Shown: positions 22,997-26,857 of the stretch, one piece after another | Layout: each line of letters begins with the position of its first letter | Position numbering within the stretch: position 1 is the first letter of the stretch | Origin: a virus | DNA length: 26,857 nt | Reading direction: 5' to 3' (one strand) | IMG/VR virus record: IMGVR_UViG_3300046820_001604 | Span: 1-26,857 of that record | Made by a program: the position numbers and the translations under genes | Notes under the pieces: model-generated | The model's input: the letters and a program-made list of their open reading frames with translations, nothing else | What the model was told of the DNA's origin: nothing | The model's database searches: none

Positions 22997-24427
22997 TTAG
23001 TAAGCCATAAACTTCTTCAATATAAACAGTTGAGAGAAAGCATCAGACATAGCATCAACTTGGTCATCGTGTTTACCTAATGGAAAAGTTCGTAGTTCTT
23101 CAATAAAATCTCTATTCCAATGCGCTTTTACTATATAAACATTACCAGCATTTATTTGACTTGCTATTCCTTCTGCTCTTATTTGTTTTTGTCCAGTAGG
23201 TTTTATTTTTGTAATGTTATAACCTGCTAATAACCTAAATAAATATTGTGCTTGAAACTTACCTGCTGCTCCTGGGTCTTCTGGTATTGTAATATTTATT
23301 CTTCCATCTAAATCAGCAGTATTTTTGATGTATCTATCTCTAACATCAGGAGACCATTGACCTCTAACAACATCAAGAATATAAATATTTTTATCAGCAT
23401 CTATTCCCATTTTTATGCCAGCAGTAAAGTCTCCATCATTTTCAGTGGCTGCTAAATCCCAACTTCTAACTATTTTTGTAAGATTATTAGGAATAGCATC
23501 AATGTAGTTTAGATTATTTATTTTTATAAATGAGCCTTCTTTTGGTGTTGGATTTACTTGATAAAGAGATTGGAAAGCATAGTCTCCAATAACCTTTTTT
23601 ATGCGTAATAAATCATCAATATTGTATCTTTCTGGCCATAATGCTTCTCCAACACTTCTACCAATAGCATCATTTTCATCATTACAAATAGCAGGTAAAT
23701 CTAATATATGCCATTTATCTGGTTCTGCTTCTACTGCTCTTACTGATAAATCATCTTCGTGCCAAGGTGTCATAGTAATCAATACTTTTCCACCAGGCTC
23801 TAATCTTGTAAGTAAATCAGAAGTATACCAATCCCATACATTTTCCCTATATGTTTTACTTTCTGCTTGTTCTCGGTTAGCAATAGGGTCATCAATACAA
23901 ATACAAGAAAAACCTTGACCAGTAGGGGCATTACCTGTTCCTCTTGCCATACATACACCACCATTTATTGTTTGCCATTCATCAGAAGCAGTTTTATTTC
24001 TATCTAAATGGTTTCTGCTTTGATAAATGTTTCTGCTCATACGGGAAAATCTACGAGCCATTCTTTCATTATAAGAAGTAATCAAAACATTATCTTCTGG
24101 AAACATCTCCATCATATAAGCAGCAAGTCTAATAGTTGATGATTGTGTTTTGCTATGACGTGGTGGCATTTTTATAAGTAATCTATCAAACTTACCATCG
24201 ACAAAATCCTGTATTGTTTCTGCTATTTTTATAATATGCGGTGGTAAAGTCCAGGTTTTAGGATAAGTTTGTGTAAGAAAATCTAAATATAGGGGCTGTT
24301 CATTTTGAATACTATCATTTTGGTTCTGGATTGTTTGCTGCTTCGAGAAGTTGAACAGACCAGTTTGTAAGTTGTTGATGCAAATCGGCAATCTGTCCTG
24401 CGCTTTGCGTCCTAATATATCTTTCAT
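22997..24427 (-). CDS. terL: Terminase large subunit
   Basis: This 476-aa protein packages DNA. The ATPase part has a Walker A-like loop MPPRHSKT (87-94), Walker B CICIDD (175-180) and coupling motif TMTPWHEDDL (218-227). The RNase H-like nuclease part has Asp324 in SWDLA, Asp384 in PEDPGA, and Asp454/455 plus Asp458 in HDDQVDA. The ATG at 24425-24427, with AGGTCAAG upstream, makes it overlap the small subunit gene by 113 bases, which is long. No internal ATG before the ATPase motifs gives a good alternative, though a TTG at DRLPIC could also start it. The promoter-like motif at 24713 starts this block. Confidence 0.93.
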   Translation of the reverse strand: MKDILGRKAQDRLPICINNLQTGLFNFSKQQTIQNQNDSIQNEQPLYLDFLTQTYPKTWTLPPHIIKIAETIQDFVDGKFDRLLIKMPPRHSKTQSSTIRLAAYMMEMFPEDNVLITSYNERMARRFSRMSRNIYQSRNHLDRNKTASDEWQTINGGVCMARGTGNAPTGQGFSCICIDDPIANREQAESKTYRENVWDWYTSDLLTRLEPGGKVLITMTPWHEDDLSVRAVEAEPDKWHILDLPAICNDENDAIGRSVGEALWPERYNIDDLLRIKKVIGDYAFQSLYQVNPTPKEGSFIKINNLNYIDAIPNNLTKIVRSWDLAATENDGDFTAGIKMGIDADKNIYILDVVRGQWSPDVRDRYIKNTADLDGRINITIPEDPGAAGKFQAQYLFRLLAGYNITKIKPTGQKQIRAEGIASQINAGNVYIVKAHWNRDFIEELRTFPLGKHDDQVDAMSDAFSQLFILKKFMAY

Positions 24428-24695
24428 CTTGACCTACTTTTGCTATTGTTTCTATTGCTTTTAGATGTTCTTTCAAAGATGTAATAAGTAAATCCTCTAT
24501 TCTATCCACAGCATTTTCAGGTAATAGCGATTTCTGGTCTTCATCTAACTCTTGTTTTATTTTAGATACAGCACCAGAAGAAATACCGTGCTTTCTACTC
24601 ATTTCATTTACACCAATACCTAATAATAAGCCAGAAATAATATCTGCTTTTATTTCTTGTGTAATCTTTTTATATGCTCTTGTTTTACTTTCCAT
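24315..24695 (-). CDS. terS: Terminase small subunit
   Basis: This 126-aa protein should recognise the packaging site. It has an N-terminal helix-turn-helix region (about 13-50): SGLLLGIGVNEMSRKHGISS followed by AVSKIKQEL, which reads as a homeodomain-like DNA-binding fold. A charged helical C-terminal part follows that would oligomerise and contact the large subunit. It directly precedes the large subunit and overlaps it by 113 bases. GAGGTATT precedes the ATG, and a variant promoter-like motif lies at 24713-24722. The call is from position plus helix-turn-helix; sequence alone is weaker. Confidence 0.85.
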   Translation of the reverse strand: MESKTRAYKKITQEIKADIISGLLLGIGVNEMSRKHGISSGAVSKIKQELDEDQKSLLPENAVDRIEDLLITSLKEHLKAIETIAKVGQDERYIRTQSAGQIADLHQQLTNWSVQLLEAANNPEPK

Positions 24696-25039: not shown

Positions 25040-25285
25040 TTATACTAAATATAGTCTATCATTTTCTTCCCTAAAATAGCAATAATATCCTTCTTCAATC
25101 TTATTTATTTTCTTACCTTTAAACTTATATCCGTGTTTATCCCAATCTTCTCTACTAATATAACCAACAATAAGTTTATTCTTTACTACAATCATCTTTA
25201 CGCCAAACACAAAACCAGAATAAACTTGTAATGAACCACTATCGTAAATCTCATCAAGTTTTTCTATTTCTATGCTATGTTTCAT
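25040..25285 (-). CDS. Small beta-rich protein of unknown function
   Basis: This 81-aa protein begins MKHSIEIEKLDEIYDSGSLQ and alternates strands: YSGFVFGVKMIVVKNKLIVG, KGKKINKIEEGYYCYF and a final RLYLV. It may be a small barrel or SH3-like domain. It is near neutral with many lysines and one cysteine. It starts inside an ATGA overlap with the HNH gene (4 bases), so it is translated by coupling. No family recognised. Confidence 0.6.
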   Translation of the reverse strand: MKHSIEIEKLDEIYDSGSLQVYSGFVFGVKMIVVKNKLIVGYISREDWDKHGYKFKGKKINKIEEGYYCYFREENDRLYLV

Positions 25286-25746
25286 TCAATATGTGTCCAT
25301 ATTTTATTATTTTTTATTTTACTTATTGTCATTTCAGAAACATTGAATATTTTTGAAATATCTTTTTGTAATATTCCACTTGATAATAATCTTTTTATTT
25401 CAATAACATCAACATCAGAAAGTTTAGAACCTGGATTATGAGAACCTTTTTGATTTCCATTATATGTTCTTCCTTTATTTGCTTTATCTTCCATATTTTG
25501 TTTATGAGAGCCTAAAAATAAATGTTCTGGATTTACACAAGATGGGTTGTCGCATTTATGACATACACATAAACCATTTTCTATATTTCCAAAATGAAGT
25601 TCATAAGATAAACGATGTGCTCTAAAATCTTTATTGTTGTATGAAAAAACACCATAACCATCTCTTGATTTTCCAGTAATCCATTCCCAACATCCATTTT
25701 CAATCTTATTTACTTTACTAAAAAATCGCTCTTCTAATGTTTTCAT
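25282..25746 (-). CDS. HNH endonuclease with C-terminal helix-turn-helix tail
   Basis: This 154-aa protein is a freestanding HNH nuclease of the HNH_3 type. Residues 14-52 carry NGCWEWITGKSRDGYG and FRAHRLSYELHFG. The zinc/active-site region is CVCHKCDNPSCVNPEHLFLG (60-79), with Cys62, Cys65, Cys70, His63 and His75 as candidate metal or catalytic residues. KQNMEDKANKGR follows. A tail (about 106-150), SKLSDVDVIEIKRLLSSGIL then DISKIFNVSEMTISKI, looks like a DNA-binding helix-turn-helix as in homing enzymes. It overlaps both neighbours by ATGA and has AGGA upstream. It may be a homing element or a terminase helper, as some HNH proteins beside terminase are. Confidence 0.88.
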   Translation of the reverse strand: MKTLEERFFSKVNKIENGCWEWITGKSRDGYGVFSYNNKDFRAHRLSYELHFGNIENGLCVCHKCDNPSCVNPEHLFLGSHKQNMEDKANKGRTYNGNQKGSHNPGSKLSDVDVIEIKRLLSSGILQKDISKIFNVSEMTISKIKNNKIWTHIE

Positions 25747-26114
25747 TCAATCATTCCTAAATATTTTTGTATTAGCATTATACCTTCTTGGGCATCTCTA
25801 ACAACTACAAAAAGAGGCCATTTTGAGGTATTTTTCATAATAATATCTTTCCATTCTTGTTGTTGCTTTGAAAGTGTTCCTTTTTCGCTTTTTACTTCAA
25901 TATATAAGCAAGAATAGATACTATTATCGATTGGAACTACTAAATCCCATACACCACTTTTCATACCAAGTTTTTGAAGCCATTTTATTATTCCAAATCC
26001 TGTTCCAAAAAAAGAGTTGGGTGGGTGGTATATACATTTCAATACTTCATAATCTTCTTCATTAGCTCTAACCCAATCCATAATAGCAATATGGATTTCT
26101 GCTTCTTTTTTCAT
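25743..26114 (-). CDS. VRR-NUC domain nuclease
   Basis: This 123-aa protein is a compact VRR-NUC (PD-D/ExK) nuclease. Visible motifs are KEAEIHIAI at the N-terminus, HPPN (30-33), KLGMKSGVWDLVVP with Asp57, LYIEVKSEKGTLS with Glu73 and Lys75, and the trailing Gln run at 84-86. Standalone phage VRR-NUC proteins are thought to process branched DNA, such as Holliday junctions, before packaging; that role is inferred. It heads the operon VRR-NUC, HNH, unknown, unknown. The ATG lies only four bases beyond the promoter-like motif and has no Shine-Dalgarno, suggesting a leaderless or near-leaderless start. Confidence 0.9.
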   Translation of the reverse strand: MKKEAEIHIAIMDWVRANEEDYEVLKCIYHPPNSFFGTGFGIIKWLQKLGMKSGVWDLVVPIDNSIYSCLYIEVKSEKGTLSKQQQEWKDIIMKNTSKWPLFVVVRDAQEGIMLIQKYLGMIE

Positions 26115-26165: not shown

Positions 26166-26609
26166 TTATTTTCCGTAGATATCTTTTAGTTTTTGGATTT
26201 CATCAAGTCGATGAGAGTGTTTTGTCCAGGATGAAATCAATAAATCTACTTTATCTAAAATAAGTTTTTTTATTGCTTCTTTATGATTTTTATCATAATC
26301 AAACTTATCAAGATTATTCCAAATAAAAATACAAGTATCATCGCAAGGCCATAGTTGATTTATAGTAGGTTTTTTACTACCACAAACAAAATAATACATT
26401 TTGAACCCAGTCCATTTATTGTAAACACGGAACTTACATTTGGCAGGTTTTTTGAAAAATGGCGTTTGTAAGATTATTTCATTTGAAACATCTTCAAAAG
26501 CATTATCAAGAAACTTTTGATATCTTGTATATTCAAACATTACTTCTCCTGCGTCGTTCATCATAACGACCCTTTCTTTACCACCAACAACTTCAACTTT
26601 TTCAGTCAT
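26166..26609 (-). CDS. Unknown 147-aa protein with its own promoter and terminator
   Basis: This protein begins MTEKVEVVGGKERVVMMNDA. It looks mixed: beta strands in the first half (GEVMFEYTRYQKFLDN, KCKFRVYNKWTGFKMYYFVC) and a lysine-rich helix towards the end (KEAIKKLILDKVDLLISSW). Two cysteines flank the tryptophan-rich middle. I recognise no family. The frame is open up to an ATG at 26636, but the ATG at 26607-26609 has GGAG at 26618-26621 with eight-base spacing, so I prefer it. It is a single-gene unit driven by the sigma70-like promoter at 26651-26678 and ended at 26131-26160, so it is probably expressed early, before the motif-driven blocks. Confidence 0.75.
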   Translation of the reverse strand: MTEKVEVVGGKERVVMMNDAGEVMFEYTRYQKFLDNAFEDVSNEIILQTPFFKKPAKCKFRVYNKWTGFKMYYFVCGSKKPTINQLWPCDDTCIFIWNNLDKFDYDKNHKEAIKKLILDKVDLLISSWTKHSHRLDEIQKLKDIYGK

Positions 26610-26627
26610 TTCATTTTCTCCGTGTAA

Positions 26628-26644
26628 GTAGTTCATTCAACTAC
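26628..26644. promoter_or_regulatory. Perfect dyad GTAGTT-N5-AACTAC in the leader, possible operator
   Basis: Six-base arms flank five bases, placed just after the predicted start point of the promoter at 26651-26678 and before the ribosome site. It could be a repressor site or a small RNA hairpin. The arms are short, so chance is possible. Confidence 0.4.
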
Positions 26645-26650
26645 ATTACT

Positions 26651-26678
26651 ATTATACATACTTCTACATAGAAAGCAA
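26651..26678 (-). promoter_or_regulatory. Sigma70-like promoter TTGCTT-16-TATAAT
   Basis: The minus strand has TTGCTT (26673-26678), a 16-base spacer and a perfect TATAAT (26651-26656). The predicted start is near 26644. It drives the 147-aa gene. This is the only place in the window where I found a consensus host-type promoter, in contrast to the CGATAAAATA sites. Confidence 0.7.
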
Positions 26679-26703: not shown

Positions 26704-26787
26704 ATTATTTGTTGGACAAAAGTTGATTATTTGTTGGACAAAATACTATTATTTGTTGGACAAAAATGTATTATTTGTTGGACAAAA
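26704..26787. repeat. Four iteron-like 18-bp direct repeats at exact 22-bp period
   Basis: ATTATTTGTTGGACAAAA occurs four times without a mismatch, starting at 26704, 26726, 26748 and 26770. The 4-bp spacers differ (GTTG, TACT, ATGT), so the 18-bp unit is what is conserved. Each unit contains the dyad TTTGT-TGG-ACAAA, which suits a dimeric protein. The period is two helical turns, so all sites face the same side. An A-rich stretch follows at 26784-26792. The block is upstream of the minus-strand promoter at 26651. Confidence 0.93.
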
Positions 26788-26807
26788 AAATAGACTGTCC
26801 AACAAAT
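26773..26807. repeat. 12-bp inverted repeat formed by the last iteron and a reversed copy
   Basis: ATTTGTTGGACA (26773-26784, inside the fourth repeat) is matched by TGTCCAACAAAT (26796-26807) around 11 bases. The reversed copy makes a fifth site in the opposite orientation, or a stem-loop. No T run follows on either strand, so it is not a standard terminator. Confidence 0.8.
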
Positions 26808-26857
26808 CCTATCCTAAATAATGGTTCATCTTTCTGTAAGATAATAAAGATAATAAG

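Follow-up and report, generated by a model that had tools for sequence, protein, structure and literature searches.

An iteron-like array in a group of environmental tailed phages, a candidate replication origin, and an early protein whose helix-turn-helix covaries with it

The window, by which we mean the whole stretch of DNA analysed (26,857 bases), is an entire IMG/VR virus record whose right end lies 50 bases past an array of short repeats (Table 1). Its major genes are all on the minus strand, its terminase, portal and head genes identify a tailed phage, and the array is located upstream of the late operon. The interval between the array and that operon holds a gene for a 156-amino acid accessory protein, with its own sigma-70-type promoter outside the array; in relatives this place is taken by different genes, or by none. 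The conserved neighbour on the late side is a Holliday-junction-resolvase-like VRR_NUC nuclease. No tRNAs and no Rfam matches were found. We also observed an HNH endonuclease gene with a helix-turn-helix (HTH) tail (25282-25746), inserted between the VRR_NUC gene and an 81-amino acid gene and absent at that place in the relatives L002, L004, L007 and L085.

Table 1. Features at the array end of the window, and candidate binder genes on the contigs of four relatives
Feature	Sequence	Positions	Strand	Remarks
Terminase large subunit	Window	22997..24427	-
Terminase small subunit (TerS)	Window	24315..24695	-	Position and similarity to relatives
VRR_NUC nuclease	Window	25743..26114	-	Conserved late-side neighbour
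156-aa accessory gene	Window	26166..26636	-	No PHROG or significant Pfam match
Promoter of 156-aa gene, TTGCTT-N16-TATAAT	Window	26651..26678	-	Sigma-70 type; outside array
Iteron 1, ATTATTTGTTGGACAAAA	Window	26704..26721	+	Exact match
Iteron 2	Window	26726..26743	+	Exact match; 22-bp period
Iteron 3	Window	26748..26765	+	Exact match
Iteron 4	Window	26770..26787	+	Exact match
Inverted fifth copy, 12-mer, TGTCCAACAAAT on + strand	Window	26796..26807	-	Inverted copy in 8/8 phages
Spacer from inverted copy to AT-rich tract, CCTATCCTAAATAATGGTTC...	Window	26808..26837	+	Conserved; five-phage alignment
Start of AT-rich 9-bp tandem repeat, AAGATAATA	Window	26838..26857	+	Candidate unwinding element; from sequence; tract runs into contig end
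Candidate binder gene	L002	3026-4000	-
Candidate binder gene	L004	3926-4954	-
Candidate binder gene	L095	9761-10789	+
Candidate binder gene	L007	2869-3864	-

The first-pass annotation of this DNA had described four perfect 18-bp repeats at an exact 22-bp period with variable spacers, next to one inverted copy, and exact matching bears this out: four identical ATTATTTGTTGGACAAAA 18-mers, separated by spacers of 4 bp each and of variable sequence, occupy 26704-26787, and the inverted copy is present as a 12-mer. The array far exceeds chance expectation, as no 18-mer was seen more than twice in any of 200 first-order Markov sequences of the length of the window. Nor are the repeats scattered through the record, a pattern that would have spoken against the earlier reading: the 13-mer has no copies elsewhere in the 26,857-base record at zero or one mismatch, and three scattered matches at two mismatches. 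The dyad symmetry claimed for each repeat fared less evenly. The window copies have a perfect 13-bp internal dyad (TTTGT-TGG-ACAAA), but it is broken in those of relatives, where alignment gives ACAGA, ACACT or ACGGT on the right side; the part of the unit that is kept, unlike the dyad, is ATTATTTGTTGGAC.

A search with the terminase large subunit returned six close contigs (84-89% identity), including one that we refer to as L095 (the L006 contig), and the repeat pattern led to one more, L085. Arrays of the window type occupy the corresponding place in L002, L003, L005 and L085. The arrays of L004 and L095, in the corresponding region, are of a GGATACATCT type and that of L007 is of a TCGTACATCT type, again with a 22-bp period; the internal dyad is not evident in either of these two types. 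Thus three different repeat sequences occur among the eight phages within one shared design, which in all eight consists of four direct copies at spacings of 22, 22 and 21-22 bp, with a single inverted copy towards the early genes. Copy four of L005 and L085 has an A replaced by a G (TTTGTTGGACGG), such that the pattern script lists three copies while the printed sequence shows four. A pattern search with the flanks yielded no further array, and relatives of the VRR_NUC nuclease comprised the known contigs, one short contig without an array and one remote match. The only match in a bacterial genome, a pair of 13-mers in Achromobacter (L086, spacing 18), is probably due to chance.

The design extends beyond the repeats. 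In the six relatives that could be read there, the inverted copy is followed after 31-41 bp by AT-rich tandem repeats of 9-10 bp, then by a small perfect hairpin, and then by a reading frame of 37-42 amino acids. The tract that begins in the window continues in L002, L005 and L085, and has another spelling in L004, L007 and L095. An origin-like layout had been proposed for the window, and the iterons, the inverted copy and the AT-rich tract support it. The hairpin, which lies between the tract and the small frame in L002, L004, L005, L007, L085 and L095, varies in its stem (AAGGAC, AGGC, GCAC) and has TGC or TTC loops, corresponding to GCA or GAA on the opposite strand; GNA loops form unusually stable DNA hairpins. 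The small frame (MxIDITxTALxx...NEVRLY...) is conserved in L002, L004, L007, L085 and L095, encodes a hydrophobic product and has a strong ribosome-binding site.

The cognate protein had been expected just past the right edge of the window. Relatives support a location beyond that edge, but not one adjoining the array: the gene that we consider the candidate, encoding an early protein of 324-342 amino acids with a C-terminal HTH, is 0.4 or 2.6 kb from the array, and 2.6 kb in the nearest relative. In L004, whose phage genome is complete (32,406 bp, with 123-bp identical contig ends), the early arm encodes a methyltransferase, a sigma factor, an XRE protein, a 208-amino acid protein (p208) and the candidate, here of 342 amino acids; neither of the last two matches a family. 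An initiator related to O, RepA or Rep_3 had been suggested, and neither one of these nor a RepA_N initiator was recognised, as the candidate had no Pfam match at E<=0.05 and no NCBIfam match at E<=1. Likewise, there was no PDB sequence match at E<=1, the PHROGs gave weak partial matches only, tblastn of the L004 and L002 forms against phages and plasmids gave no match, and a profile search for more relatives of the candidate, p208 and the sigma factor returned the same four contigs only. Both AlphaFold models made of the protein were of low quality (mean pLDDT 40 and 42) and unfit for a fold search. Among the window-type phages, only the L002 contig extends as far as the gene, and it provides the sole window-type sequence of the protein; this sequence is 32-34% identical to the other forms and has a different HTH, while the products of neighbouring genes are 78-89% identical.

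A swap that associates this protein with the array is seen in one contig, L095, in which the array and the HTH depart together from the rest of the genome. For 16 of 18 genes tried, a counterpart exists in L007 as well as in L004, and over its whole length each of the 16 resembles the L007 gene more than the L004 one (XRE, 100 versus 75% identity; sigma factor, 99.6 versus 83%; p208, 99.5 versus 78%; TerS, 98 versus 93%). The array, over a 100-column window, is instead 97% identical to that of L004 and 75% to that of L007. Within the candidate binder, the last 36 residues, which hold the HTH, have eight informative sites that side with L004 only and two that side with L007 only, as against 13 and 42, respectively, in the remainder of the protein (Fisher p = 0.0011); the stretch that reads TKLDLLKNTVKKRLDR in L095 and L004 reads TRLNIAKNTVIYRLSN in L007. 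Between the L095 and L007 arrays, the change from GGATAC to TCGTAC is repeated across the copies, including the inverted one, while the spacers of copies 3 and 4 are for the most part unchanged. The HTH difference was noticed before the L095 array was read, and the array type was thus an informal prediction that held. Since TerS, the sigma factor, XRE and p208 are nearly unchanged across this swap, they are unlikely to read the array; the XRE protein, a candidate we had considered, is 100% identical in L095 and L007 though their arrays differ. Selection on protein binding, inferred earlier from the repeats of the window, finds support, and the 324-342-amino acid protein is, from these comparisons, the likely array binder and the best candidate initiator.

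We think that the array is probably the iteron block of a phage replication origin, to which this early protein would bind. Phages that depend on the replisome of their host require an initiator and an origin. Much the same requirement has been described previously (PMC4488673). A scan of the early genes of L004, ten further L004 late genes and the late genes of the window, which covered the small frames in part, revealed no polymerase, helicase, primase, recombinase or integrase family; with no polymerase, helicase, primase or integrase recognised in a complete genome, the protein and the array become the best candidates for initiator and origin, respectively. In this model, the protein, encoded beyond the right edge of the window, would bind each 22-bp iteron through its C-terminal HTH, with each iteron serving as an asymmetric, monomer-type site and the proteins aligned on one helix face. 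Binding would strain and open the AT-rich repeats, which begin 31-41 bp away, for loading of the host replisome, and the inverted copy would form a cap at the end facing the unwound DNA. Of this reading, the evidence backs the array itself, the conservation of its design and the covariation of array and HTH; binding, DNA opening, helicase loading and a role in replication rather than transcription control are what we infer from them. Two common indicators of origins are, in our judgement, not diagnostic here. The cumulative GC skew of the complete L004 genome is lowest at the array, as it would also be through divergent transcription, and highest near the convergence of transcription, not opposite the array. 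There is no cluster of DnaA boxes (TTWTNCACA) near the array in L004, and the two matches in that genome, one of which overlaps a promoter, are about what chance would give. DnaA boxes are common but not universal, and many iteron origins vary in this respect.

It is also conceivable, if rather unlikely, that the array is an operator block and the 324-342-amino acid protein a repressor or activator of the diverging early and/or late operons, in which case the switching of array types would be a switching of immunity types as in lambdoid phages. In L002, L005 and L085 early and late genes do diverge from the two sides of the array, the protein has a DNA-binding HTH, and operator-regulator pairs covary in the same manner. 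However, no conserved sigma-70 promoter overlaps the array (there is one non-conserved match in the window), and the late genes begin anywhere between tens of bp (L002) and well over 1 kb (L004, L007) from the array, whereas the AT-rich tract is at a nearly fixed distance. Moreover, the genome has a separate XRE-type regulator and another conserved repeat better suited as an operator, and the phage would be left without a recognisable initiator.

The swap in L095 bears on the remaining explanations as well. That the array follows the host, being bound by a host-encoded protein (DnaA, an IHF-like protein or a regulator), is very unlikely, given that L095 and L007 have most early genes in nearly identical form and probably have a common host range, yet differ in their arrays, and that the array tracks a phage HTH. 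Cos and pac sites can contain repeats, and the location of the array upstream of the terminase genes would suit a packaging site (pac or cosB) for TerS, but this seems still less probable, as the TerS of L095 has 98% identity to that of L007, which has a different array, and 93% to that of L004, which has a matching one, and variable genes separate terS from the array. We give least credence to the repeats being promoters or upstream elements for late transcription by a phage sigma factor. A protein with sigma-70 region 2 is encoded in the early region and late genes begin near the array in L002, but this factor is 99.6% identical in L095 and L007 although the array changed.

Returning to the array as an origin, its closest parallel is among iteron theta plasmids. 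Direct repeats of about 20 bp in helical phase are present in all eight phages, and adjacent AT-rich short direct repeats in six relatives, with the start of the tract in the window. The theta plasmids of lactic acid bacteria of the pUCL287/pRC12 type likewise have about four direct 22-bp iterons and an AT-rich region; in pRC12, a gap of 37 bp separates 4.5 iterons of 22 bp from four direct repeats of 11 bp (PMC7117683), a distance comparable to that in the phages. The phages differ in that they always add an inverted fifth copy, and in that their initiator candidate is outside the recognised Rep families and its gene may be 0.4 or 2.6 kb away. The resemblance to the lambda origin, with which the array had been compared, extends to four iterons beside an AT-rich segment and would include a phage initiator working with the host replisome (PMC4488673, PMC5043065). 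However, the lambda iterons are inverted repeats bound by O dimers, while helix-phased iterons are typical of plasmid origins (PMC5043065), and the broken dyad of the relatives points to the plasmid mode. Thus the iteron unit, as judged by alignment, is asymmetric and plasmid-iteron-like rather than lambda-like, and the layout fits theta-plasmid iterons better than the dimer-and-dyad analogy. The lambda iterons also lie inside gene O (PMC4488673), whereas the array is intergenic in all relatives that contain the candidate gene; its period is 22 bp, and no P-like loader was recognised. RepA phage-plasmids such as P1 and mycobacteriophage Miko, which lack an integrase, have an HTH initiator of about 320-350 amino acids (PMC7157519), a description that the candidate here would fit. 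In contrast, the HTH of P1 and Miko RepA is in the N-terminal part, and here we found no RepA homology and no parABS. The phage may also replicate as a plasmid, as had been suggested should the array be an origin; integrase and partition (par) genes were sought among the L004 early genes and the late genes scanned from L004 and the window, and none was found. We place the array with the iteron origins by its likely mode of action, not as a proven member of their class.

Whether the protein represents a previously undescribed initiator family, in which close relatives swap, or mutate together, the C-terminal HTH and the 4+1 array as a specificity pair, is to our minds evenly balanced. If so, the array types would define origin-compatibility groups that may be either mutually exclusive or compatible within one cell. 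The comparisons provide a candidate initiator for an environmental phage group without a recognisable replication gene, and the natural pairs of matching array and reading helix make origin recognition and phage-phage replication interference directly testable.

Further features were noted in the relatives. The 501-amino acid DNA methyltransferase of L004 (742-2247) has an apparent extra HTH-like segment, which the L002 form (452 amino acids, cut by the contig end) seems to be without. A second repeat, TTGACTAAATCAGTAGGAATA, is present in two to three copies in six relatives (L002:5620-5700, L004:5430-5500, L005, L007, L085 and L095), directly after an extended -10 site resembling TGNTATAAT, and is possibly the operator of the conserved XRE protein. 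Upstream of an SprT-like gene in the same six relatives is a conserved, GC-richer 5´ leader of about 300 nt preceded by a sigma-70-type promoter (L002:5158-5455, L004:5625-5992). RNAalifold predicts 62 pairs in this leader, 16 of them changed on both sides, with a small covariation term (-1.28) and no Rfam match. The two groups have the SprT-like gene and its leader to different sides of the array and pointing in opposite directions (L002:3026-5157 versus L004:5956-6696), as if they had been inverted or moved between them.
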